From Planctomycetota bacterium (GTDB taxonomy: Bacteria; Planctomycetota; Phycisphaerae; Sedimentisphaerales; Anaerohalosphaeraceae): 14,284 bases of DNA. This document shows positions 1,865 through 14,284 of this stretch, piece after piece. The notes under the pieces are model-generated. The model had not been told where the DNA came from, searched no databases, and saw only the letters and a program-made list of their open reading frames with translations. The stretch spans positions 1 through 14,284 of the forward strand of contig QNBS01000022.1 in NCBI GenBank assembly GCA_003644175.1, given 5' to 3'. Position 1 is the stretch's first letter; every line of letters starts with the position of its first letter. Position numbers and translations under genes: made by a program.

Positions 1865-4105
1865 TTATCTTAGTTTACCCGCTTGCCTGACCTTATTCAA
1901 CAACATAAGCAACTGGGGGGAACTCGGGTTGGCCTTTTGGGCGAGTTGCAAGACCTCGGCGGCCTCATCGAAGCGTTTTTGCCTGGCCAGGAAAAGAGCA
2001 AAATTGTAGTTAAGCGTCACATCACCGGCAGCGAAAGTTAGTCCTTTGCGGTAAACTTCTTCGGCTTTGTCGGGCTCGTCCCGCCCGTCCAGTATTATCG
2101 CCATTCTGTTGTATCCCTGTGCATGGTCGGGGCGGATTTGAACTTCCCTGGAAAAATGTTTCAAGGCGTTATCGGTATCGCCCCTATTAAGACACGAAAC
2201 TCCCATGACATGGTATGCGTCCGCACAGTCGGGCCTGATTCGCAGAGCTTTCTGGCTGGCGATGACGGCGGCATCGGCGTTTCCCAACTTGAGCAGAGAC
2301 AATCCGTATGTTGCATGGGCCAAATACGAACCGGGCATAAGTTCGGTTACAATACGATATTGCTCGGCAGCGCCCTGCGGTTTCTTCATGACATCCGTCA
2401 GAAACCTGGCATATTTCCAATGCAGCCACCAGTCGGATGGAGCATTCCGGATAGCTTCGACATACTGCTTTTGTATCGATTCCAGGGCCGGGTAGTCGAG
2501 TGACTTTCTGAGATCGGCGGCGTTTTGCTCCATATGCCTGACAAGGGCGTCGTTGTCCAGCCTGTTCGTAAATGGCGCCTTCCTAAGAAACGTACCGAGA
2601 AGTTTTTGAGTGATCCTGTATTTATCCCACTCGGTGTAGGCGAGTCTTTCTGCGCACTGCTTGCGGCTGATGATGGACAGAGCGGCCCTTTGGCTCTTAA
2701 TCCAGGTCGGCAGGATGTCCTCTATCCGCCGAAAGACTGTTTCCGCCAGGACGTAATTTCCTTTGAAATTCAGGTGCACATGTTCGTAGAAGAGTTCCTC
2801 GCCGGGCGTGTCATGCAAGCTGTTCTCTTCAAAAGTCTTGACGGAATCCACGAAATAGACGCCCTTGCCTGTGAAGCTTTCGGCTACTTCACGCACGATT
2901 TGATTTATCCGGTTGTCGGCGCGCAGCCGCAGGGCATCGCTTTGGCGCGCAAGGATGTATTCAATACGGGCTTTTTCAAAGAGGCCTGATTGCTCATACG
3001 CCCTTGCGATCCTGAAATGAAGTTCGGCATAGGCGCTGTCAATATCGCCGGCGGCCAGGTAGCTCTGAAGCGCCAGGTCATTGTCGCCCGATACGGCGTG
3101 TTCCGCTCCCTGCCGGTAGAAGTTGTCCCATTTTTCTTTTTCGGCGTCGGTCAGGTCCGTGCGATGGAGAGACGCAAATGGGGGACAGTCTTTTATATTG
3201 CCGCCGACGGAGCATAGAATGGCGTCTGCGCCTCCTTTGCGGATGATTCCTGCGATATCTTCGAGGTTCTTTCTAAAGTGTTTGTAAACAACATCAAGGT
3301 CGGCATCGTCTTCCCGGATGAGGTTTTCCATGAACATCGCGGTTCCGGCCCATGTAGCCGGGGCGGTCTTTTGGGACTGTTTAGTCTGCAGGCTGTTCTT
3401 GAGCAGTTGACCGATCCTGGTGGTCTGCATTGCTTTGTCGAAACGGATAAAGTTCATATTATCCGAAAGCGGCGCAAAGATCGTGCCGGCGCCATAGGGG
3501 CCTATGACTTCATTGTTGCCCAGATATACAACAAACAGGTTGCCGCCATGACGAACACAGTCCCTTGCGATGGGTAGTACGACATGTGAATTGGCGGCGG
3601 TGATCGCAATGTTTATTACTTCGAAATTGACTTGTGGATATTGGTTCCTGAGCATGACTTCCAGACAACGGGCAAACGAGTATGAGGGTTCAGGAGTTCC
3701 CAGCGCCGCCGAGCCGCCCAAGATAAAGATGCGGTACGTTTCGGCTGGTTTCCTGGCGGCAAATATGAACGGTTCGAATTCGCGGGCAATAGTCCGCGGC
3801 CAGAAGCGCCGTCCAAACTGATAGTTTTCGCAGTATGACGCCTGCCCATTCAACGTGGTCTTTCTAAAAGCGCTCGCCGAATAGCCGTATCCAACAATTC
3901 GCAGGGATATTTCGATGGCAAGCAGCACAACAGCAGGAATAACTGTAGCGGCGACAAGCCTGAACAACCACAGACGCCGACGTGAAATGGAACCGGCGGT
4001 TTTGATTCGTTGTTCAACTTTTCCAGCCGCTTTATCACCGGCGCAATCGGGGCGACGGGATTGGATATTTGAATCCGTTGTTCTGACGTTATCTTCCGCT
4101 GTCAT
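1865..4105 (-). CDS. Membrane-anchored SGNH/GDSL hydrolase-like protein with TPR domain
   Basis: A 746-residue protein. The ATG at 4105 is preceded by GGGGAAG at good spacing. Residues 1-43 are charged and cytoplasmic in character, and one signal-anchor helix covers about 45-70. The rest is predicted to be periplasmic. SGNH-type blocks are visible: GGSA at 130-133 (candidate nucleophile Ser132), GNNE at 196-199 (block III Asn), and EHVHLNFKGNY at 441-451, where His444 is the candidate catalytic His. A helical TPR-like insert lies at about 330-400, within the hydrolase domain. After a linker, four to five TPRs fill about 555-730 (for example AYHVMGVSCLNRGDTDNALK). Such proteins may act on acylated or glycosylated envelope polymers; the substrate is unknown. 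It lies 49 bases after the twelve-haem cytochrome and before the two decayed genes, probably co-transcribed with them. Confidence 0.8.
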   Translation of the reverse strand: MTAEDNVRTTDSNIQSRRPDCAGDKAAGKVEQRIKTAGSISRRRLWLFRLVAATVIPAVVLLAIEISLRIVGYGYSASAFRKTTLNGQASYCENYQFGRRFWPRTIAREFEPFIFAARKPAETYRIFILGGSAALGTPEPSYSFARCLEVMLRNQYPQVNFEVINIAITAANSHVVLPIARDCVRHGGNLFVVYLGNNEVIGPYGAGTIFAPLSDNMNFIRFDKAMQTTRIGQLLKNSLQTKQSQKTAPATWAGTAMFMENLIREDDADLDVVYKHFRKNLEDIAGIIRKGGADAILCSVGGNIKDCPPFASLHRTDLTDAEKEKWDNFYRQGAEHAVSGDNDLALQSYLAAGDIDSAYAELHFRIARAYEQSGLFEKARIEYILARQSDALRLRADNRINQIVREVAESFTGKGVYFVDSVKTFEENSLHDTPGEELFYEHVHLNFKGNYVLAETVFRRIEDILPTWIKSQRAALSIISRKQCAERLAYTEWDKYRITQKLLGTFLRKAPFTNRLDNDALVRHMEQNAADLRKSLDYPALESIQKQYVEAIRNAPSDWWLHWKYARFLTDVMKKPQGAAEQYRIVTELMPGSYLAHATYGLSLLKLGNADAAVIASQKALRIRPDCADAYHVMGVSCLNRGDTDNALKHFSREVQIRPDHAQGYNRMAIILDGRDEPDKAEEVYRKGLTFAAGDVTLNYNFALFLARQKRFDEAAEVLQLAQKANPSSPQLLMLLNKVRQAGKLR

Positions 4106-4154: not shown

Positions 4155-5840
4155 TTAACCAGAATGGCCACTCTTGCGATACCTCTTCGGTGAATGTTTC
4201 TTGTTGTGACACTCGAGATAACACCGGCCCCGGAAGAGTCCCTCGTCTTCGAATTGCAGCAGACCCGTGTCGGGGTCGGGGAACACTATGGAAGTGTCAA
4301 AGTTGATGAGATTGCTGTTATTCACAGAGTTGCCCTGGACCGAATTGATACCGTGTGGATCATGACATGCCGAACATGGCATCTTCTTATTAATGTGCTT
4401 GCCATGATGCTTGAAGCTCTCATTATTCAAAATGCTCTCGCGATCGTGACAGCGGTAACACAGTTCATAAGCCATAGGGCTCTCCTCTGTATCATCGTCT
4501 GTCTCGTATCGATAAGCTAAAAGATACGGATTTTGCGAGCCGTGCGGTCCTTTCACCGGTGAAGACAAATCGGAATTATGGCAGTCCGTACAATAGATTA
4601 TAGTCGATTCATCCATCCCTTCGAGCAAGCTTGGGACGTTTAGATTAACCCCCGCCACGGTTACCGGATGGTAGGAAGGATTGGACTGGTCAAACTCCAT
4701 AAGTGTATTAGTCTGTGTAATCCGGCGCGAAATATCGGAATCGATACGGTTGGGATTGTTCCCGTGGCACTTGAAACATATCTCATACTCGTAACTGGCC
4801 TGTTCGATTACACTCCCTCCCGATGTTACACCGGAAACATATCTCATCGAACCACGAACCTGCGGCGCCTGCTCAATACCGGTACTCTGTACAACAGCAT
4901 GAGGATTGTGGCAGTCCACACACTCAACGTGCCGATCCGAACTTTCCGTCGCCTCCTCCATATCGTGCACACCCTCGTAATCTTTCACAAAATGACCGCT
5001 GTACTTTTCGAACTCGTTAACCAGATTTGTCGTGGCGACCTGACCGTTATGGCAGCTAAGGCAGTTATTTTCCTCTTCTGCGAAGTGAAGAAGCCGCTGC
5101 TTGCCCCCTGCCGAATGAGGCTGATGGCACGAAAGACAGCCATTATCTTCAACGGTCGTGTATCCGGTATTTGTCAGGAAATCATCGTCGGCGTTTTTGA
5201 CATCCGCGGTGGAGCCGGCATGGACACCGGCCGACCATCCGAATATGTCATGGCACTGCATACACAAATTAGAACGCAAATTGGTCGTTACCAGAAAATT
5301 CCCGTGAGTATCATCGTGCGGATCATGGCAGGTAACACATTGCATTTCATCGAGATGGTCAAGGTGAAACTCTTCAGGCAGAGAATCCGGCGATTTTATC
5401 TGCGGATCTTTGTCGGACAACCCGGACGAATACACGAAACTCACCGGGTGGTCATCCGATAGATCTGTCCCAAAATTCGTCGAACCCGGCGGCATATACG
5501 TATTGCCCCCGCCTCCGCCGCGAACCGTCGCATCTAAAGCAACCGTGCCATCGTGACAACTCAGACAGAGTTTGCTCGAACCGGTCGGCTGACCGACATC
5601 TGCGTCCAGCGACGTGCTCCAGTAGATTTCGTATGTTCTGTCGGAAAGTTTATGATTCCACAACGGGGTACCCGACAAAGCCATGTGCGGCGTATGGCAA
5701 TACTGGCAGGCCATGCTGCCGTCCTTTCCCGGCGAGAAATCATGGGCTGTACCCGTGACACCGCCAAAAGCACGCGGCGATGTCAGGCAAACAATAACCG
5801 GAACGCCCAATAACAATATGCTTGATAATTTCATTTTCAT
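4155..5840 (-). CDS. Secreted dodecahaem c-type cytochrome (doubled-CXXCH family)
   Basis: A 561-residue protein. Residues 1-26 form a Sec signal peptide ending in AFG. Eleven canonical CXXCH motifs begin at Cys45, 92, 168, 193, 235, 260, 307, 355, 417, 461 and 489, many followed by a near His (CHTPH, CHDPH, CHQPH, CHNPH) as in doubled-CXXCH cytochromes. A twelfth site at 540-545, CYLECH, is CX3CH. The many extra His residues would allow bis-His ligation. The ATG overlaps the stop of the upstream NHL gene (ATGA), with GGAGG ten bases ahead inside that gene, so the two are probably translationally coupled. A likely role is electron transfer at or outside the outer membrane with the adjacent barrel and pentahaem lipoprotein (inference). 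Its N-terminal three-haem part resembles the tetrahaem cytochrome at 11453-12292. It has no lipobox. Confidence 0.9.
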   Translation of the reverse strand: MKMKLSSILLLGVPVIVCLTSPRAFGGVTGTAHDFSPGKDGSMACQYCHTPHMALSGTPLWNHKLSDRTYEIYWSTSLDADVGQPTGSSKLCLSCHDGTVALDATVRGGGGGNTYMPPGSTNFGTDLSDDHPVSFVYSSGLSDKDPQIKSPDSLPEEFHLDHLDEMQCVTCHDPHDDTHGNFLVTTNLRSNLCMQCHDIFGWSAGVHAGSTADVKNADDDFLTNTGYTTVEDNGCLSCHQPHSAGGKQRLLHFAEEENNCLSCHNGQVATTNLVNEFEKYSGHFVKDYEGVHDMEEATESSDRHVECVDCHNPHAVVQSTGIEQAPQVRGSMRYVSGVTSGGSVIEQASYEYEICFKCHGNNPNRIDSDISRRITQTNTLMEFDQSNPSYHPVTVAGVNLNVPSLLEGMDESTIIYCTDCHNSDLSSPVKGPHGSQNPYLLAYRYETDDDTEESPMAYELCYRCHDRESILNNESFKHHGKHINKKMPCSACHDPHGINSVQGNSVNNSNLINFDTSIVFPDPDTGLLQFEDEGLFRGRCYLECHNKKHSPKRYRKSGHSG

Positions 5841-6913
5841 GGCTTTTCAACCTCCAACAACTGGAGAACCTGTATTCTCTTATTGAACGAATCGGCCACA
5901 AATATTCGGTTGTTATCGTCAATGAAGATACCCGCCGGCAGCCAGAACTGTCCCGGACCATGACCCTCACCCCCGACCGCCATCAGTATCTGCCCGGCGC
6001 TGTTGAATATCTGAATATTCTCGAATTGCTTGTCGCTCACATAAATATTACCATGGCTGTCCGTAGCTACACCGCAGGGATGAGCAAAATAACCCGGTCG
6101 ATTGCCGTGTTTTCCGATCGATCGCAAAAATTTCCCGTCCGCCCCGAATATCTGGACGCGGTAATTCAAAGTATCGCTCACATAAAGCCTTCCCTTCTTA
6201 TCGATCCATATATACGTCGGAAAGCTGAACATCCCGTTGCCCCCGCCGTGCCCGCCCATCGTCAGCACATGGCGACCGCGCATGCTGAAGATATCAATCG
6301 AATGCCTCTTGGCGTCGGCAACGTAAATCGTCCCCTGCACGCCGTTGTAAGCTATACCCGAAGGCCTCTGCAATGTATCCGAGCCGAACGAAAACTTGTA
6401 TTTGCCTTCCGTGCTGAAAACGCAAACCTTACCCAAGCCGCTGTCCGTAACATAAATATCCTGGCCAACCACAACTGCACCAACAGGCGACAACAATGTC
6501 TCATCACCCTCTAACTTCGAAAACTGCCCATATTTGCGTCCGTCCAGGTCCATCATATGCACCACGCCCCCCGAGGCATCGGCGATAAACAGCCTTTCCT
6601 CGTCGTCCATCGCTATCGCTCGCGGGCTCACAAGGACACCTATGTCTTCCCGCCCAAAGATGAATCGGCCAAAAGCCGCCATCCCGGACACTTCCCGCTT
6701 TAGATCATCTTCGGTGGACAACTCCCCCAGATACTGTATCCGGGCCTGCTCCGGAGGTTCAGGCCAGACTATGGTCGCCTCCAACTCGCCAAATAGCTTG
6801 CCCCGACTGCTCCCGCAGCCGCAACAAAGCATTAGCACCAGCGCCAGGGACAAAACAAATTGCCCCGTCCTCCCCGGCAATTTCAGATGAATGTGGTTTC
6901 TGGAAGCCAACAT
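5837..6913 (-). CDS. NHL-repeat beta-propeller lipoprotein (downstream copy)
   Basis: A 358-residue protein. ATG at 6913 has GAGG about eight bases upstream. A hydrophobic stretch (VLSLALVLML) ends in Cys30, Cys31 and Cys33; Cys33 after Gly is the likeliest lipidation site, although the lipobox is not classic. The mature start has the segment WPEPPEQARIQYLGEL, a short Pro-rich leader shared with the other NHL protein of the cluster. Six NHL blades follow at roughly 95-131, 141-176, 182-220, 228-268, 275-314 and 322-352, each with a G-I-A/Y-V-x-D core (for example YVSDTLNYRVQIF), enough for a closed propeller. There are no haem motifs. It overlaps the twelve-haem cytochrome gene by four bases and starts 15 bases after the barrel gene. 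Probably an envelope scaffold or partner-binding propeller for the conduit (inference). Confidence 0.88.
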   Translation of the reverse strand: MLASRNHIHLKLPGRTGQFVLSLALVLMLCCGCGSSRGKLFGELEATIVWPEPPEQARIQYLGELSTEDDLKREVSGMAAFGRFIFGREDIGVLVSPRAIAMDDEERLFIADASGGVVHMMDLDGRKYGQFSKLEGDETLLSPVGAVVVGQDIYVTDSGLGKVCVFSTEGKYKFSFGSDTLQRPSGIAYNGVQGTIYVADAKRHSIDIFSMRGRHVLTMGGHGGGNGMFSFPTYIWIDKKGRLYVSDTLNYRVQIFGADGKFLRSIGKHGNRPGYFAHPCGVATDSHGNIYVSDKQFENIQIFNSAGQILMAVGGEGHGPGQFWLPAGIFIDDNNRIFVADSFNKRIQVLQLLEVEKP

Positions 6914-6928
6914 GACCTTTTCCTCAAA

Positions 6929-8926
6929 TCAAAATCGCCTGGTCAATCTCAAATAGAATATCGTACCGGCTCTTTCGGTGTCGCGGCGTTGGAGTGTGTA
7001 ATAATCCAACCCGGCTCTTACGCTGAGTGAACGACGATTATATTGTAATGCAGCACCAAGTTTCCATCCATCCGTTGGGCCTATATCGCTGCTGTCTTCC
7101 TTGCGTAACTCCACATCGCCCGACAACTTCAGATACCTCGTTAAACGAGTCTTTATTCCTCCGTTCGCCCTAAAAAGAGACGTTTCGCGGGCAAGGTTCC
7201 CGGTCGAGTCAAGCCAGCTTTGCGAAACACGTCCGCGAAATGACGTCTTTGGCGTCAAAGGCCACACAATACTGGCCGCCAATCGGTCGCTCTTGGAGGA
7301 GTTCTGGTTCGATTTTGTCTCGCCATGCTCGGCGTTCAGTGAAATATAGTCATTGCTGTAGCCGGCCCCGAAACTGTTCGTCTCGTATTCGTCATCAAGG
7401 TTGACCGTTCCAGAGCCAGTCGAAGCGCCGAAGCGATTTTGACGGTTCAAATACGAATAGAATACCGAAAAACCGTTATTGAATTGCTGTTCTATACGGA
7501 AATCATGTTGGATATTCTCTATATCAGTTGAGGCATCCGTCTGAACAAGATAGTCCACCAGGATTTCCTGACCGTCGGAGATATTCGGAAGAGTATCGTC
7601 CAGCGGATATACTGTAAGCTCGATGCGTCCATCCACCTCCCTGACTGTATAATCGCCGTCAATACCTTCCGTATAAATCTCTGTGCCCGTACTGTCCGTG
7701 ACAACAATGCTGTCAACGACAATGTTTCTTCTTTCAAGCGTAACAGGATTTGGATCGTCCTCGTCAAAAATATGCGATTCACCGGTCACAAGGTCCGTTC
7801 CCGTTGCACCGCTGCTTTCCCGGGTCGTCATACGGACCGAGTATCTGCTCGTCAACAGCCCCCACGGATTATTCCTGTAGTAATCAAACCTCAGCTTCCC
7901 GCCGCGTCGTGTGGATTCGCTATTGGCGCCGAAATCACTCTTGCTGGCAAACGCACTGAAACTGGTGTTGAGATTATCGTATAACTGGTGGTAAAAACCT
8001 GCCGTAACCCCCGTTGTACGGCTTTCGCCCAACTCAAAAGTATTATCTACGACATAGGCGTTGTAGAACGTAGAAAACGTTGGCGAGTGATACAGCTTCA
8101 GACTTTCGTTCCAGTTAAAGGTCTTGTTCTCAAAGTCGCCGGTTCTGTCGGCAAGAGAAACAGAAGTGTTGAGGCTATGCTGATTGTTGCGTCCAAAATT
8201 ATAATCATGCAAGAGCCGGTGCTGGGTTGTTTTTATCTCGCGGGTAAAACTTCCTCCTGTCTGCGAGAGGTTACTCAGGTCGGATCTGAAGTACATGCGC
8301 GATCGTTCACTAAAATTGTGCCTCAGAGAATAGCCGAATCTTTCATCGGTTCTATCGTAAAGGTCTTCGGCGGAACCAATATCGGAACTCCTGGTCATCT
8401 CATCTTTGCTCCATGAAAAAGTCATGGGCCAATTTTCAAATCGCAATCTGCCAAGAAAGCTATTAGACGTATTCTCCATCTGCAAGGGGCTTTGAAATCG
8501 GCGAGAGCTGACAGATTCGCTTTTTCTTGTATTGACGCTGAACGGATAAAGTTTCCCGGACAGGAAATTCGCGCCAAAATTGTAACTGTTCAGGTTGCCG
8601 GAACTGCTCCCGGATTCTGTCTCCTGCTTGAACTTCTGCTGGTTCAAGCCCAGCCCCACACCGGCCACATACGTCATCAACTTCGGATCAAATACATCCC
8701 CCTGCGTGCCAAGAAACAGTTCCTCTTGCATTATCGTACTCTCACTTTTTCGACTCGTTCCGGAAGAATTCAATTCTTCCGTCCGCCGGCGCGCAGTCAA
8801 ATTCACACTACCATAAATACGTTCTGATTTCACAAAGGACCTTTCTCTTCCCCTTACCCGAACCGCGCAGCCGCTGGCTTGCAGCAAGGCCAGACCGGCG
8901 CCGACCAGCAGCAGAACTTTTATCAC
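6929..8926 (-). CDS. Outer-membrane beta-barrel of porin-cytochrome conduit type
   Basis: About 665 residues from GTG 8926, chosen because it gives a compact signal peptide (VIKVLLLVGAGLALLQASGC) with a possible lipobox ASGC. TTG 8974 would add 16 residues; neither start has a strong ribosome-binding site. The mature protein is Ser/Asn/Arg/Tyr-rich with alternating hydrophobic residues throughout, and ends YLRLTRRF, a C-terminal Phe typical of BAM substrates. Between candidate strands, about residues 405-478 (counted from 8974) look like a small all-beta soluble insert with a YTEGIDGDYTV motif and DGQEILVDYLV. There are no Cys residues after the signal and no haem motifs. It lies between the pentahaem lipoprotein and the second NHL gene. 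A role as the pore sheath of an outer-membrane electron conduit is inferred from context; no closer family was recognised. Confidence 0.8.
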   Translation of the reverse strand: MIKVLLLVGAGLALLQASGCAVRVRGRERSFVKSERIYGSVNLTARRRTEELNSSGTSRKSESTIMQEELFLGTQGDVFDPKLMTYVAGVGLGLNQQKFKQETESGSSSGNLNSYNFGANFLSGKLYPFSVNTRKSESVSSRRFQSPLQMENTSNSFLGRLRFENWPMTFSWSKDEMTRSSDIGSAEDLYDRTDERFGYSLRHNFSERSRMYFRSDLSNLSQTGGSFTREIKTTQHRLLHDYNFGRNNQHSLNTSVSLADRTGDFENKTFNWNESLKLYHSPTFSTFYNAYVVDNTFELGESRTTGVTAGFYHQLYDNLNTSFSAFASKSDFGANSESTRRGGKLRFDYYRNNPWGLLTSRYSVRMTTRESSGATGTDLVTGESHIFDEDDPNPVTLERRNIVVDSIVVTDSTGTEIYTEGIDGDYTVREVDGRIELTVYPLDDTLPNISDGQEILVDYLVQTDASTDIENIQHDFRIEQQFNNGFSVFYSYLNRQNRFGASTGSGTVNLDDEYETNSFGAGYSNDYISLNAEHGETKSNQNSSKSDRLAASIVWPLTPKTSFRGRVSQSWLDSTGNLARETSLFRANGGIKTRLTRYLKLSGDVELRKEDSSDIGPTDGWKLGAALQYNRRSLSVRAGLDYYTLQRRDTERAGTIFYLRLTRRF

Positions 8927-8978
8927 ATTGTTCAATCCATTGACACATTTATTTCTTCTGTGTCGAGTATGCAACAGA

Positions 8979-9731
8979 TTATTTACTCAAATTAACCGTA
9001 TTGGGGTCCTCTTTCAGCACTTCCACGCTGTCAACACTATTGGGATCCGACACCAACTGCCCTGCCGGTTTCAAGAGTTTTTCCATGGAACTTACATGCG
9101 GGTCATGACACTTTGTGCAGATCGCGTCCAGATTGTCGGCATGGCCGGATATGGTGGCTATGTCCTGCCGCGTGTGGCAGCGATAGCACAAATCCGGCAG
9201 CCTGGCCCTTTGGAGGTAAATATATGCACTTTGATGAGGATCGTGGCAAAACACGCATGCCCCAACCGCTATCGGGCCGTGCAGATAGACGCCCGCCGTC
9301 TCATAATTCTTATGGCAGGAATAACATAACTCAGGCAAGGGCTTAACCAACTCCCGTTGGCGTTGATTCATCGTGCCGGCATGGCAATTATTGCAGTCGC
9401 GAGCCGCTGCATGTATCGAACCGGCCTTTTGGCTCAAACTCCCCCCCATCTTCCTGCGCAAAGTGGCACTGCTTAACAAGTCCACGTTGGTTGTTCGGGT
9501 TATCCTGAGCCGTCTCGGCCCGGGGCCATCCGGATCGGGGACACCCTCAAAGAAAAAGGTTAATGCCTTGTGCCGCCCCTCCCTGCTGCAACTCGAAACG
9601 ACAAGGGCCGGCATGATCACTCCGGCTGTAATCAGGCACAAGACAATCCCGGTTTTCGGAACCCCTGCGTAATATGTTTGCTCTTTCTTTCCCATCAGCC
9701 CCATCCAGACCGAAATCAGCCTCAACCGCAA
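8979..9731 (-). CDS. Pentahaem c-type cytochrome lipoprotein
   Basis: 250 residues from TTG 9731, chosen because GGAGAG lies at ideal spacing and the codon starts two bases after the upstream stop. ATG codons 10 and 13 (9704 and 9695) are alternatives. A hydrophobic segment (IVLCLITAGVIMPALVV) leads to the lipobox VSSC, with Cys48 as the lipid anchor. The mature N terminus, CSREGRHKALTFFFEGVPDP, is a signature I know from small multihaem lipoproteins in electron-transfer clusters. Five CXXCH motifs begin at Cys113, 136, 159, 182 and 205, evenly spaced 23 residues apart, which suggests a repeated compact fold. Nearby His residues offer distal ligands. The tail after residue 215 is acidic and haem-free. 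It sits between the first NHL lipoprotein and the barrel, and is the best candidate for the haem protein that plugs or feeds the pore (inference). Confidence 0.88.
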   Translation of the reverse strand: MRLRLISVWMGLMGKKEQTYYAGVPKTGIVLCLITAGVIMPALVVSSCSREGRHKALTFFFEGVPDPDGPGPRRLRITRTTNVDLLSSATLRRKMGGSLSQKAGSIHAAARDCNNCHAGTMNQRQRELVKPLPELCYSCHKNYETAGVYLHGPIAVGACVFCHDPHQSAYIYLQRARLPDLCYRCHTRQDIATISGHADNLDAICTKCHDPHVSSMEKLLKPAGQLVSDPNSVDSVEVLKEDPNTVNLSK

Positions 9732-9733
9732 TG

Positions 9734-10927
9734 TTACTCTCCGGATGTCGGTTCCTTCGACTCATTGGTCTTTTCAACTTGCGACTTGTCGGATTCATCG
9801 CCAACAAACGGCTGGGAATACTTCTCCGGGAAATTTCCGAAACCGTAAACACTGACCATCTGGTCGCCGTATTGATTGGTTACCAGGACAATAAAGTCAA
9901 GCTTTGCGCCTTTGACGACATAGTCCTTGAACAAATCCACATTATCATAATCGATAATCACATCGGCGGGCATATACATCTGCCCCGGCTCTGTCCCGAG
10001 CAGGCCAAACAACATCAACAGCCGACCGTCTTCTCTGAATACTTTTACCGCCTGCGCCGGACCGGCGTCAACCACCCACACCCTGCTCTCTCTGTCAACG
10101 GCAATTCCCTTGACACGAACCAGGCTCGCCGGCGTACTGCCGGGCTGCCCGTATGAACGCAGGAATGCCCCGTTCGAACCGAACGTGGTCAACCGGCCCT
10201 TGAGTTTGTCCCCGACATAGATATTGCCTTCCTGATCCAGCGTCAGATCGGTAATCATGGAAAACTCGTCAGGCTGCCAGTTTGCCCTGTCCGCCAGAGG
10301 CTTGCCGATCCTCTCGATGAGTTCACCGCTTCGCTTATCCAACACCAGCACCTGATTGCTGTTCATGTCCGTCAAATACACCCGCCCGTCTCGAACATAA
10401 ACGTCGATAGGCCTGATCCCCAACTTATTGCCAAGGTAGGATGTGAGCTTGTCGTCGGCGTTAAACACAACTATCGCCCCCCCCGTAGAGTCGGCGACAT
10501 ATTTGGTCCCGTCGGGTTCAATAAACATGTTCACGGGCCTGGTCAATGACCTGCCCGAAGGGAAAATCGTAAACTTGTTGTTTACGAGGTCCATCACCTT
10601 GATGTTTGCATGGCCCACATCGCACACATATATCTTGCCCTCGTGGATCGCTACCCCGTATGGCTGGCCAATCGTGCCGACCTTAATCTCCGCATCGCCC
10701 AATACAAAAGTTTCCAGAAAGCCCGGCTTTTCTATATCGAATTTCTCACCTCCCTTAAACGAGGTTAGAAACTGCAGCTTCGGCTGGTTTGGAGGCGGCG
10801 GGAAAAACACCGGCCCCAAAACTTCTTCTTCGACAACGGCCTTGTTGCAGCCGCTCGAACCCAAAATGATGCAACCTGCCAAAACTGCCAGAAAACACTT
10901 CTTAGCCAACCCACAAACAGTCTTCAT
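9734..10927 (-). CDS. NHL-repeat beta-propeller lipoprotein (upstream copy)
   Basis: A 397-residue protein. ATG 10927 is chosen because AGGAG lies seven bases upstream and the signal peptide starts MKT; the frame is open further upstream without a good site. The lipobox SSGC puts the lipidated Cys at 27. A Pro-rich leader follows (FPPPPNQPKLQFL, residues 42-54), like that in the other NHL protein here. Six propeller blades lie at about 88-120, 130-158, 170-203, 224-258, 270-305 and 317-362, with cores such as GVAIHEGKIYVCDVG and GIAVDRESRVWVVD. The C-terminal 25 residues are charged and probably disordered. It is the first gene of the five-gene conduit block; the next gene starts two bases after its stop, so co-translation is likely. 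A G8 run at 10477-10484 lies in the second blade. Confidence 0.88.
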   Translation of the reverse strand: MKTVCGLAKKCFLAVLAGCIILGSSGCNKAVVEEEVLGPVFFPPPPNQPKLQFLTSFKGGEKFDIEKPGFLETFVLGDAEIKVGTIGQPYGVAIHEGKIYVCDVGHANIKVMDLVNNKFTIFPSGRSLTRPVNMFIEPDGTKYVADSTGGAIVVFNADDKLTSYLGNKLGIRPIDVYVRDGRVYLTDMNSNQVLVLDKRSGELIERIGKPLADRANWQPDEFSMITDLTLDQEGNIYVGDKLKGRLTTFGSNGAFLRSYGQPGSTPASLVRVKGIAVDRESRVWVVDAGPAQAVKVFREDGRLLMLFGLLGTEPGQMYMPADVIIDYDNVDLFKDYVVKGAKLDFIVLVTNQYGDQMVSVYGFGNFPEKYSQPFVGDESDKSQVEKTNESKEPTSGE

Positions 10928-11344
10928 GACAAAACTCCTGACCTTCTTAAAACTACTATGATTTCCAACACACAAGTAAATAATGTACATCGCAATTAAT
11001 CGCGTTGTTCACCAGGCCACCACACAGATTCACTCTTCTCAGCGCCACTCAGAACTGAATACCTTTTTATCGGCTAAAAACACACCCTTGTAAACGTGTT
11101 TGCACACTGGCAAGGCAATTATTACTCCTGTCCGGCAAGAGACCCTCCCGGGAACAAGCTGCCTGTAAAACACCCCCCAATATGTTGTAGAAATATCTGC
11201 GAATGCCAAACTTCAACTACCTCGTGCAACCAGCGGGAACCCGATGCGATGCAAATACTACCACATCCCCGCCAAAAAAGCAACACCAACCACCTCAGTG
11301 CCGATAAAATCACCCCAGCAGTACAGCCCGTATATAAAACCACC
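10928..11344. promoter_or_regulatory. Leader/promoter region of the five-gene conduit block
   Basis: About 420 bases lie between the conduit block and the terminator of the tetrahaem gene. I see no convincing gene on either strand. It must carry the promoter of the minus-strand block if that block is separate from the tetrahaem gene, as the terminator implies. No unambiguous -35/-10 pair was identified by eye. Small symmetric elements are present: CCTTG at 11086-11090 paired with CAAGG at 11111-11115, and the palindrome TCCCGGGA near 11147-11154. Confidence 0.4.
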
Positions 11345-11406
11345 GAAAAATCAAAAAAGAAGACCCGACCTGAAACGGAACCTAACACTCCTTCAGGCCG
11401 GGTCTT
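11345..11406 (-). terminator. Intrinsic terminator of the tetrahaem cytochrome gene
   Basis: On the minus strand a 15-base stem (arms 11392-11406 and 11360-11374, AAGACCC...CCTGAA, one mismatch) encloses a 17-base loop. It is followed by a T-rich tract (CTTTTTTGATTTTTC, 11345-11359). It begins about 47 bases after the tetrahaem stop codon. This is a textbook factor-independent terminator and makes the tetrahaem gene a separate transcription unit from the conduit block. Confidence 0.88.
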
Positions 11407-11452
11407 AAGTTGTACTGCTTAAAACTGCAAATTTGCATCTATCAAACAGATA

Positions 11453-12292
11453 CTACTTGATGTGGCATGTCTTGCACAGAACGCCATACTTGAGTTCGTA
11501 ATCATCCGCATTTGTGACGTCGGCGCCCCAACCCGCTGCCCACTCAATGCCGGGGATGTTGACAAGGTAAGGTATCCTGAAACTGTGTTCGCCCGTATCA
11601 GTGTGGTCGATGTAAGGTACGTTTCTGCCGCGGCTGTCCACATCAATTACACCATCAAGATCTACATCTGCCCAAATACGGTAGTCGCCAAAAGGAGCCG
11701 CAGGATCGTACAACTGACCAGCAGGAAGAGCAGAACCATCACCAACACCCTGAATATCCTGTGACCAGGCAACGGTCTCATCGCTGAGGCCCTGGATATG
11801 AATATCGTGGCAGCTCTGGCAGTTCACATAGCCATTACTTGGCGAGAGCAGATCTTCGGTAATAGTACCTTCGCCATTAACCTTTGTGCTGCTGCCCTGC
11901 GCATCAGGATCGACCAACTCTTTGTCGTCCGCAGCCAGAGTGCCGGTATAGGCAAACTCCATAGGGTGTGAACCTGTCAGATCGCCGGCGGCATCATTGA
12001 TGGCACGGTGAGGCTCCGAAGCTCCGGAGTCGTGACAAGCAAGGCACAAAAGACTCGGACCCACAGGGGTGCCGGCCGTAGCCTGCATCGTCTCGCTGTC
12101 ATAAGCGGTAAACCCGGGATGAGACCCAGGAAGCACAGTGTCGCTGTTCCACAGCGGCATATCCTCCAGGGTCCCGGCTTTATGCGGTATGTGGCAACTG
12201 TCGCACTCGTAGGACCTTCCTTCACGTGCATGGAACGCCATCGCCGGCGCCGCTATGGCCAACACAGCCATAATCACAATAAGTTTCTTCAT
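11453..12292 (-). CDS. Secreted tetrahaem cytochrome, OmcS/OmcE-like ends
   Basis: A 279-residue protein. ATG 12292 is preceded by GGAGGT at ideal spacing; an in-frame upstream codon lacks such a site and would spoil the signal peptide. Residues 1-19 (ending APAMA) form a clean Sec signal, giving a mature protein that starts Phe-His. Four CXXCH motifs begin at Cys30, 83, 158 and 273, the last only two residues from the C terminus. Residues 209-219 (DVDLDGVIDVD) match a calcium-binding D-x-D-x-D-G loop. At least eight further His residues could serve as distal ligands. The FH start, the first CXXCH soon after it and the CXXCH at the very end recall, from memory, Geobacter OmcS and OmcE, whose subunits stack into filaments. 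It has its own leader and terminator. An extracellular electron carrier is likely; filament formation is only a hypothesis. Confidence 0.9.
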   Translation of the reverse strand: MKKLIVIMAVLAIAAPAMAFHAREGRSYECDSCHIPHKAGTLEDMPLWNSDTVLPGSHPGFTAYDSETMQATAGTPVGPSLLCLACHDSGASEPHRAINDAAGDLTGSHPMEFAYTGTLAADDKELVDPDAQGSSTKVNGEGTITEDLLSPSNGYVNCQSCHDIHIQGLSDETVAWSQDIQGVGDGSALPAGQLYDPAAPFGDYRIWADVDLDGVIDVDSRGRNVPYIDHTDTGEHSFRIPYLVNIPGIEWAAGWGADVTNADDYELKYGVLCKTCHIK

Positions 12293-12966: not shown

Positions 12967-13293
12967 ATGAAGCAGGTGCCGAAAAGGCGAATACAAGAGA
13001 TTATGAGCAGAATCGACTGCCCGGAGGGCTTTGAGTGCTATAAGTCCGGGTTTGAGAATCTGTGCCCGCAGGAGATTACCGAATACGGCGGTCCGGCCGA
13101 GTGCAGACAGGCGCAGCGCGACCAGGAAAATGTTCGCCCTTGCACGATGAAAACGTCCTCCGGCAGGGATTACTGCTGCAGCTGCCCCTTGCGGGTTTAT
13201 GTGGTTACATACCTTAACAATCTCACCGCTTTGGAAGGTCCGATATCAGGATCAGGACCACGCGACAAGCAAGCCGACGACTCCGTGTCCTGA
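12967..13293 (+). CDS. Small eight-cysteine protein, function unknown
   Basis: A 108-residue protein. ATG 12967 is preceded by GGGAAG about six bases upstream. Eight cysteines lie at 18, 24, 33, 46, 59, 70, 71 and 73, in segments such as CPEGFECYKSGFENLCP and DYCCSCPLRVYV. There is no signal peptide, membrane segment or CXXCH, so a cytoplasmic metal- or Fe-S-binding or redox role is conceivable. From memory, the pattern resembles short uncharacterised proteins of anaerobic bacteria, and the first about 85 residues look conserved in style while the tail after about residue 90 looks loose. It is the only plus-strand gene in the window and is convergent with the hydrazine-synthase-alpha-like gene. 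I do not assign a function. Confidence 0.6.
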   Translation: MKQVPKRRIQEIMSRIDCPEGFECYKSGFENLCPQEITEYGGPAECRQAQRDQENVRPCTMKTSSGRDYCCSCPLRVYVVTYLNNLTALEGPISGSGPRDKQADDSVS

Positions 13294-13406: not shown

Positions 13407-14284
13407 CTATTCGAGGGTGGGGTGGACGATTTCGCCTCGGAGCTGGGCCTGGCCGCCGGCCTTTTCATAAACGCCGTAGAAGATCGAGCATGAGTCGAGC
13501 CAGACAGCGATACGGTGCATGTCCTCGGGGGGTAGTTTCACATCGTGGTGGCCCTTTTTCAGCATGGCATAGAGCTTTGAGGCGCGTGCGCCGAACTTGC
13601 CGGGGATGGTGCGGTGGCGGTCGCCGTATTTCCAGAACCCGTACTCCGGCGCGAGGCTGAAGTAGGAGGCGTACCATTTCTGCCGGTCTTTGACGACCAC
13701 CTCGCGGTCCAGCCGGGGGGCCTTGTCGGGGTTCTTTTGATGACACTGTAAACAGTGTTTTTCCAGGACGGGCTGGACAAGTCGCGGATAGCTGAAGGGG
13801 TTGCTGCCGTCGGCATCGGCCTTGAGGTTTGACGGTTCGCGACGCATTGCCATGGGGATTTGCTCTTGTGCGTCGGGTGCACGAAGTTTGGGTTCGTGGC
13901 AGCCCTGGCAGACGAGTCGCTCGCCGGGCTGAAGATAGGTCGCCGAGCGCATCGACTGGACGGCGAGACCATCCTTATCCAGGGCCTGGAAGAACAATTC
14001 CTTCCTTGCCGGCACGGTGAAGTGTGCGCTTCCGTCGGCTTCGACGGGGACGGTTCCGAGCACGTATCGCGCCAGCACGACCGAATCGCCTGCGGTGGGT
14101 TCGCGCAGAGATGTCTCATGCGGCGGCGCGCCGGAGGGCACGGACATGGGAATTATCTGATAGATGCGCAGCGCTGTTATTTTGATGTTCTCGGGCCAGG
14201 GCGTCTTTGTGTCGTAAACATTGACCAATGCAAGGGTCGCCTGGGCGGGTTCGTCGGCGGCGAGGCGTATTGACTGGTCGGGTA
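13407..14284 (-). CDS. Hydrazine-synthase-alpha-like dihaem protein, 5' end outside window
   Basis: The frame is open from the right edge to the TAG at 13407-13409, showing the C-terminal 291 or so residues; the N-terminal part is missing only because the window ends. Two CXXCH motifs are visible: GERLVCQGCHEP (motif codons 13896-13910) and, 50 residues later, EKHCLQCHQK. The segment with ALRIYQIIP, YVLGTVPVEADGSAHFTVPA and LAVQSMRSATYLQPGE is typical of the middle region of the HZS-alpha family (hydrazine synthase alpha subunit and its many planctomycete homologues, recognised from memory). The C-terminal part HHDVKLPPEDMHRIAVWLD resembles a mono-haem cytochrome end. Family members usually have an N-terminal propeller. 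No beta/gamma subunit gene is visible, so anammox activity is not implied; the substrate is unknown. Confidence 0.82.
   Translation of the reverse strand, partial: PDQSIRLAADEPAQATLALVNVYDTKTPWPENIKITALRIYQIIPMSVPSGAPPHETSLREPTAGDSVVLARYVLGTVPVEADGSAHFTVPARKELFFQALDKDGLAVQSMRSATYLQPGERLVCQGCHEPKLRAPDAQEQIPMAMRREPSNLKADADGSNPFSYPRLVQPVLEKHCLQCHQKNPDKAPRLDREVVVKDRQKWYASYFSLAPEYGFWKYGDRHRTIPGKFGARASKLYAMLKKGHHDVKLPPEDMHRIAVWLDSCSIFYGVYEKAGGQAQLRGEIVHPTLE

Follow-up and report, generated by a model that had tools for sequence, protein, structure and literature searches.

The OmbB-OmaB-OmcB system of Geobacter consists of a barrel, a lipoprotein cytochrome and a large cytochrome, and the large outer cytochrome is also a lipoprotein. 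ExtEFG is described as a barrel with a pentahaem lipoprotein and a periplasmic dodecahaem protein, and both ExtA and ExtG are described as dodecahaem (PMC6148476). The undecahaem electron transfer (Uet) system of Tenderiales and some Gallionella is described with the barrel UetC, two NHL proteins (UetHI), the extracellular tetrahaem UetA and UetJ with 11 or 12 haem motifs; it also includes the peptidyl-prolyl isomerase UetB and the trihaem UetDEG (PMC10734462). Here a block of six minus-strand genes from a Planctomycetota bacterium is compared with these systems. The block lies on contig QNBS01000022.1 (C22), and this entire contig of 14,284 bases is the window analysed; the metagenome-assembled genome (MAG, GCA_003644175.1) has a size of 2.5 Mb and is 77% complete. 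The six genes encode a tetrahaem cytochrome of the OmcE family (Cyt4), two NHL beta-propeller lipoproteins (NHL1 and NHL2), a pentahaem lipoprotein (Cyt5), an outer-membrane beta-barrel and a dodecahaem cytochrome (Cyt12). The block is real and conserved, and it most likely encodes an electron conduit of the outer membrane that is linked to an OmcE-type protein.

Gene content and conservation of the block

Five closely packed minus-strand open reading frames (ORFs) were listed at 4155-10927, in agreement with an earlier note on this DNA. The intergenic gaps are 2, 4 and 15 bases, and NHL2 and Cyt12 overlap by 4 bases; the gaps depend on the ORF starts chosen, and later starts make two of them wider. 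Motif counts, the Pfam scan (NHL in NHL1 and NHL2, Paired_CXXCH_1 in Cyt5 and Cyt12) and the sequences also bore out the pentahaem protein, the two NHL proteins and the barrel ending in Phe. The description of Cyt12 as a twelve-haem protein holds for its 12 motifs, but only 11 are CXXCH and one is a non-canonical CX3CH. After 2000 shuffles per protein, the mean number of CXXCH was 0.03 for Cyt5 and 0.08 for Cyt12, with a maximum of 2 in both. Lipobox-like signals were recognized by eye in NHL1, NHL2 and Cyt5. The unit is one of six genes, however, and not of five as the earlier note had it; the same-strand tetrahaem gene upstream, which had been overlooked, belongs to the set in relatives, where the order is Cyt4 - NHL1 - Cyt5 - barrel - NHL2 - Cyt12. 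This OmcE-type gene is the most telling member of the block.

A sample of 397 genomes of the class was searched with thresholds of E <= 1e-10 for the barrel, E <= 1e-80 for Cyt12 and E <= 1e-20 for the OmcE-type protein. The barrel was found in 112 genomes, Cyt12 in 111 and the OmcE-type protein in 114; all three occurred together in 110, and none of the three in 283. An OmcE-type sequence was present in all 112 barrel genomes, and two further genomes had one without a barrel. This OmcE-type count is not independent of Cyt12, because the profile also matches the Cyt12 N-terminus; among the 114 genomes, six had only one match and the rest two or more. Both barrel genomes tallied without Cyt12 contain at least part of it. 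Cyt12 lies beside the barrel in G203 (L128), and G172 (L129) has a three-haem piece of Cyt12, probably cut by the contig start.

The gene neighbourhood was compared in 60 barrel loci, which were picked by hand (best matches, some second copies and some distant ones) and not at random; loci near contig ends or broken ones in G005, G055, G297, G348 and G362 were passed over. The search for the same gene order, which the earlier note had proposed, found synteny across planctomycetes. NHL2 directly follows the barrel in 54 of the 60 loci, and a gene of the Cyt12 family lies within three genes after the barrel in 57, with exactly 11+1 motifs in 53. NHL1 was found in 53 loci, the OmcE-type tetrahaem gene in 51 and the pentahaem Cyt5 in 47; all six genes were found in 37. 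The canonical order was observed in 29 loci and a second order in eight (Cyt5 divergent, and Cyt12 - OmcE-type - NHL1 after NHL2). These counts are lower bounds, because the ORF overlap filter drops genes and contigs end; for example, NHL2 in L015 and L065 was lost but is present in another search. In L115 the script called no barrel, although the phylum-wide search had detected one. The order and the haem counts (4, 5 and 11+1) are strikingly constant across the loci. Moreover, a protein with at least four haem motifs is encoded in 60/60 loci, which excludes the case that the homologues never co-occur with multihaem cytochromes. In L014 (= G055:C47), the barrel gene is in two pieces with stops between them and Cyt12 is shortened, which may reflect a decaying copy or an assembly fault.

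The block is not restricted to the class. When 392 genomes from the whole phylum were sampled, the barrel was found in 19, of which six belong to the class and 13 do not. Thirteen loci from 12 of these 13 outside genomes contained Cyt12 with 11+1 motifs (12 loci), NHL2 (11), Cyt5 (10) and the tetrahaem OmcE-type gene (8). Among 14 loci in named genomes, 13 belong to genomes titled Planctomycetota, Phycisphaerae (-ales, -aceae) or Sedimentisphaerales, and the other to an 'uncultured bacterium'. As controls, twenty 18-kb windows from seven genomes bearing the block were placed at round coordinates on large contigs (not randomly drawn). At E 1e-5 none of them matched any of the six profiles, and their 1174 ORFs contained at most one CXXCH each. 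Chance clustering of the block genes was rejected because these twenty windows were clean.

OmcE-type cytochromes Cyt4 and Cyt12

Cyt4 contains four CXXCH motifs. A profile of nine family members (A2) matched PDB 7tfs_A, which we take to be the OmcE filament, from end to end (1-202 to 1-232, E 1.1e-41); other PDB matches were 9yuq_N (E 1e-36) and, weakly, OmcS (E 1.1e-7). The window Cyt4 scored 85 bits when it and its nearest relative were left out of the profile. Its chain ends two residues past the last CXXCH, and the same end was observed in all 53 free tetrahaem homologues (above 60 bits, in the 60 loci), as in the 7tfs and 9yuq chains. Outside the motifs, where the four distal histidines for bis-His ligation would lie, three His columns of A2 are invariant (H36, H108 and H164); the N-terminal His is present in the window Cyt4, and its column is not invariant in A2. 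The sequence shows a plain secretion signal and no anchor. Full-length homology and the four haem motifs identify Cyt4 as an OmcE family member. OmcE is described as polymerising with inter-subunit histidine ligation, and filament formation is predicted for Cyt4 from its homology.

The first ~200 residues of Cyt12 are also of the OmcE type. The single sequence matched 7tfs_A with E 1.2e-18, and positions 11-197 of profile A3 with E 1.7e-36; this domain is followed by eight further haem motifs. A plain signal peptide without lipobox was recognized by eye in the sequence and in alignment A3. The Cyt12 profile search was saturated, with 7971 of 7999 candidates passing; the best 120 of these were listed, which covers the nearer relatives.

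Propellers, barrel and Cyt5

Adjacency was examined in 74 loci, ignoring ORFs of <130 residues. NHL1 adjoins the OmcE-type tetrahaem gene on the same strand in 59/59 loci having both, the barrel adjoins NHL2 in 65 of the 68 loci with NHL2, and NHL2 adjoins Cyt12 in 64. Five loci (L098, L100, L104, L105 and L109) encode fusions of 652-686 residues, in which eight haem motifs come after an NHL1-type propeller; most of these proteins begin with a lipobox-like signal, and a search of the same five loci yielded no pentahaem gene. Since propeller and octahaem parts are fused, the propeller seems to be a physical part of the electron path and not a passenger. There is thus good evidence from the gene sequences that the propellers are true conduit parts, and the earlier proposal of two propeller lipoproteins built into the conduit is supported. 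Other NHL-multihaem fusions lie beside the block in L065 (8 haems) and L078 (11 haems), and a fusion in L021 has 23 haem motifs.

The AlphaFold2 (AF2) model of the barrel has 28 strands of >=12 residues and a predicted local distance difference test score (pLDDT) of 81.6. Its longest structural alignment is with MtrB of 6r2q and spans nearly the whole length. By sequence, neither Pfam nor NCBIfam gave a family for the barrel at E 0.01, and it had no solved relative (best E 0.65). An inserted domain lies between long strands 17 and 18, where the pLDDT is mostly 61-70; the diverse alignment A4 has four invariant residues, of which D441 and Y475 are in this domain. It would be extracellular if the N terminus is periplasmic. 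The lipobox-like ...SGC is retained in nearly all close relatives with the N terminus present; by a loose pattern, it was found in only 29 of 59 wider homologues. The wider barrel profile A4 matched 51 proteins, of which only two were new (P0172 and P0173). One barrel match is labelled Dehalococcoidales (P0003) and may be misbinned. A scan of viruses gave no relatives. A barrel homologue with 26% identity in a 1061-residue ORF (L020, 8507-11692) might serve as a control family.

Cyt5 has five CXXCH motifs and is similar to part of chain A (MtrA) of PDB 6r2q (E 1.7e-12). Against TIGR03508, the decahaem MtrA/DmsE type, it scored 65.7 bits with a cut-off of 192.2. An MtrA-like haem chain inside the barrel is predicted from this similarity.

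Proposed electron path and alternative explanations

We estimate a probability of roughly 0.6 that the block encodes a porin-cytochrome conduit of the outer membrane dedicated to an OmcE-type filament. We infer the complex itself, the membrane side of each protein, the filament and the electron direction as follows. The barrel would be a wide lipid-anchored sheath, and Cyt5 would be an MtrA-like five-haem chain, long enough to cross the membrane within it. The lipoprotein propellers NHL1 and NHL2 may clamp the cytochromes to the two barrel faces. Cyt12 would act as a collector or adaptor, whose OmcE-type domain contacts the filament, and Cyt4 would be the repeating filament subunit. Electrons might pass from quinol to a NapC-type protein, a 13-haem protein, Cyt5 in the barrel, Cyt12 and finally the Cyt4 filament. 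The direction could also be reversed, as in Uet, for which electron uptake is described. The genome has a NapC/NirT-type membrane cytochrome on C196 and a 490-residue 13-haem cytochrome on C162; in relatives a 13-haem gene often stands before the block, and by eye its neighbours resemble those of the C162 gene. Upstream of the block in L011 there are genes for the 13-haem protein and for a ten-haem protein that includes a NapC domain.

A more specific form of this proposal, possible but doubtful, is that the OmcE-type domain of Cyt12 stays permanently docked as the first subunit and that Cyt4 polymerises onto it; the conduit with its two propeller clamps would then be a socket into which the nanowire is plugged directly and specifically. 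If true, the socket would supply the link that is still missing between cytochrome filaments and conduits across the membrane, and would do so in a phylum not expected to have filaments. To our knowledge, how OmcE and OmcS filaments join the cell's own electron transport is an open question, and the block supplies concrete, testable candidates for this junction. Its presence further predicts that 28% of the class genomes sampled (112/397) exchange electrons extracellularly; metal or electrode respiration is, as far as we know, little described in this planctomycete class.

Several observations weigh against a filament-dedicated conduit. The window Cyt4 is a divergent family member that carries a long insertion ahead of haem 4, and its single-sequence PDB match has an E value of only 0.0029; the AF model of Cyt12 with A3 was useless (pLDDT 29.8). 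The Z score of the barrel model to MtrB (19.2) is tied with that to a siderophore receptor (19.1), and the width and closure of the barrel are read from the strand count, not from coordinates. The earlier note had named an open or too narrow barrel as a case against the conduit; because of the 28-strand count this is unlikely, although closure is itself predicted. The Cyt5-barrel complex of this block is likewise deduced from genes and homology. A separate Cyt5 was not found in 13/60 loci and the tetrahaem gene in 9/60, and contig ends truncate some of these loci. The L020 barrel homologue has no cytochrome neighbour among the listed ORFs, and the setting in L021 is different. An MtrC/OmcA-type protein (TIGR03507 above cut-off) was found in nine of the 56 block-bearing genomes searched (56 of the 112), and not in the present genome. 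Its distance to the barrel is ~1.3 kb in G200 (C18, from a second copy), ~10 kb in G145:C2 and ~14 kb in G238:C66; in some genomes the outer partner may thus be of this type. Moreover, the physiological role of cytochrome filaments is described as disputed (PMC11077965).

The same gene set might form a conduit without a filament, in which Cyt5 is the wire, Cyt12 a periplasmic donor and Cyt4 a non-polymerising carrier, soluble or at the surface. ExtEFG, as described, has the same numbers, the plain secretion signals of Cyt12 and Cyt4 come without an anchor, and in nine of the 60 loci no free tetrahaem gene was detected. However, the gene was kept beside the barrel in the remaining 51, and the two-residue tail after the last haem was kept as in the OmcE chain; we therefore regard an absent filament as unlikely. 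Alternatively, the barrel might carry no electrons and serve as a channel through which extracellular cytochromes or their filaments are exported or assembled, with the propellers as export chaperones. MtrB is reported to approach the size of LptD and FimD (PMC7198977), two secretion barrels that are both in the Foldseek list, and the constant neighbourhood of NHL1 and the OmcE-type gene (59/59 loci) would fit such a role. It is difficult to see why a system for export alone would have its own MtrA-like pentahaem lipoprotein, or the propeller-octahaem fusion that replaces it in some loci, and export is quite improbable. The conduit dedicated to an OmcE-type filament is thus preferred.

Features of the window and neighbouring genes

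The features of the block are listed in Table 1; for Cyt5, 9704 or 9695 may be the true start.

Table 1. Positions of the block genes and of two domains on the contig.
Feature	Position	Strand	Basis
Cyt4, secreted tetrahaem cytochrome, OmcE family, candidate filament subunit	11453..12292	-	4 CXXCH; profile A2 vs 7tfs_A
NHL1, NHL beta-propeller lipoprotein	9734..10927	-	Pfam NHL; ATG internal to longer ORF
Cyt5, pentahaem lipoprotein, MtrA-like	8979..9731	-	5 CXXCH; 6r2q_A; Paired_CXXCH_1
Outer-membrane beta-barrel, lipobox-like signal, terminal Phe	6929..8974	-	
Domain inserted in the barrel protein (about residues 392-479)	7538..7801	-	AF2 secondary structure
NHL2, NHL beta-propeller lipoprotein	5837..6913	-	Pfam NHL, E 9e-29
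Cyt12, secreted dodecahaem cytochrome, without lipobox	4155..5840	-	11 CXXCH + 1 CX3CH
N-terminal OmcE-type four-haem domain of Cyt12	5247..5801	-	Profile A3 and single-sequence match to 7tfs_A

The window also contains a piece of a dihaem protein (13407-14282, minus strand) with the hydrazine synthase (HZS) alpha middle domain PF18582 (E 1e-23), which scored only 31.8 bits against the HZS equivalog with its cut-off of 800. Upstream of the block in L009 (3934-6819) there is a more complete homologue, which has an F5/8 type C domain. This seems likely to be an HZS-like family without anammox function. The minus-strand gene at 1865-4105 encodes a tetratricopeptide repeat (TPR) protein that has a hydrophobic segment at its N terminus and a weak match to GDSL/SGNH hydrolases. 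A homologue follows the block in L008; the TPR protein is probably outside the block, since none was matched in L009-L021. The plus strand carries a Cys-rich ORF of 108 amino acids (12967-13293), which had no Pfam or NCBIfam match.

In relatives, genes for CcmE, CcmF, an ABC ATPase (CcmA-like) and CcmB were found downstream of the block in L011 (14783-19678), and genes of similar sizes, judged by size only, are present in L010 and L014. In L071, a sigma-54 activating response regulator (10649-12097) is encoded upstream of the 11/13-haem gene that precedes the block, and genes resembling it are also present in L017 and L080. Two-component regulation is likely because of this upstream regulator.

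Comparison with known systems

The likeness to MtrCAB and MtoAB lies in Cyt5, which is similar to chain A of 6r2q, and in the barrel model, which aligns to MtrB. Cyt5 has five haems, however, whereas the corresponding protein of those systems has ten, and the barrel is outside the Pfam family MtrB_PioB (PF11854). MtrB is 26-stranded, and the barrel model has 28 strands by a count from secondary structure. No MtrC-type protein was found among the ten window proteins scanned. Membership in Mtr/Mto by family model was rejected, as the barrel lacks a Pfam match and PF11854 was found in 0/56 block-bearing genomes (E 0.001).

The earlier note had likened the block to OmbB-OmaB-OmcB. The logic of a barrel with cytochromes holds, but this system is not the nearest analogue, because Cyt12 lacks a lipobox and the composition of the block is nearer to that of Uet and ExtEFG; compared by description, the block also adds two propellers and an OmcE-type protein. 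Uet likewise has a barrel, two NHL proteins, a tetrahaem and an 11/12-haem protein in one cluster, a likeness of composition and description only. The block differs in having no isomerase or trihaem protein among the ten window proteins scanned, and it adds an MtrA-like pentahaem lipoprotein. ExtEFG/ExtABCD of Geobacter sulfurreducens shares, by composition only, the barrel, the pentahaem lipoprotein and the dodecahaem cytochrome. The passages on its clusters list no OmcE-type subunit, and the word NHL is absent from the main text of PMC6148476.

NHL proteins beside such cytochromes are not a novelty in themselves, since UetHI and DFE_0451 and DFE_0463 of Desulfovibrio ferrophilus have already been described. 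The D. ferrophilus clusters DFE_0448-0451 and DFE_0461-0465 resemble the block in that NHL proteins lie next to multihaem cytochromes; they differ in that porin-cytochrome conduits are not apparent in their description, and three cytochrome-gene deletions are described to have left Fe(III) oxide reduction unimpaired. Conduits of this kind had also been considered little described in planctomycetes. This needs qualification, as porin-cytochrome, Omc and D. ferrophilus-like genes were reported in Planctomycetota MAGs in 2023 (PMC10732223). By name, L018 and L019 belong to the OFTM MAGs of that paper, the main text of which does not contain the words NHL, nanowire or multiheme. No description of an NHL/OmcE-type conduit in Planctomycetota was found in a limited search, which left the subscription literature largely uncovered.

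As far as this search shows, the constant NHL/OmcE set and its breadth are new, as is an OmcE-type domain inside a twelve-haem protein. Compared with OmcE as described, the block is distinguished by a subunit gene that sits with the conduit and by a second OmcE-type domain that is fused to an eight-haem extension.

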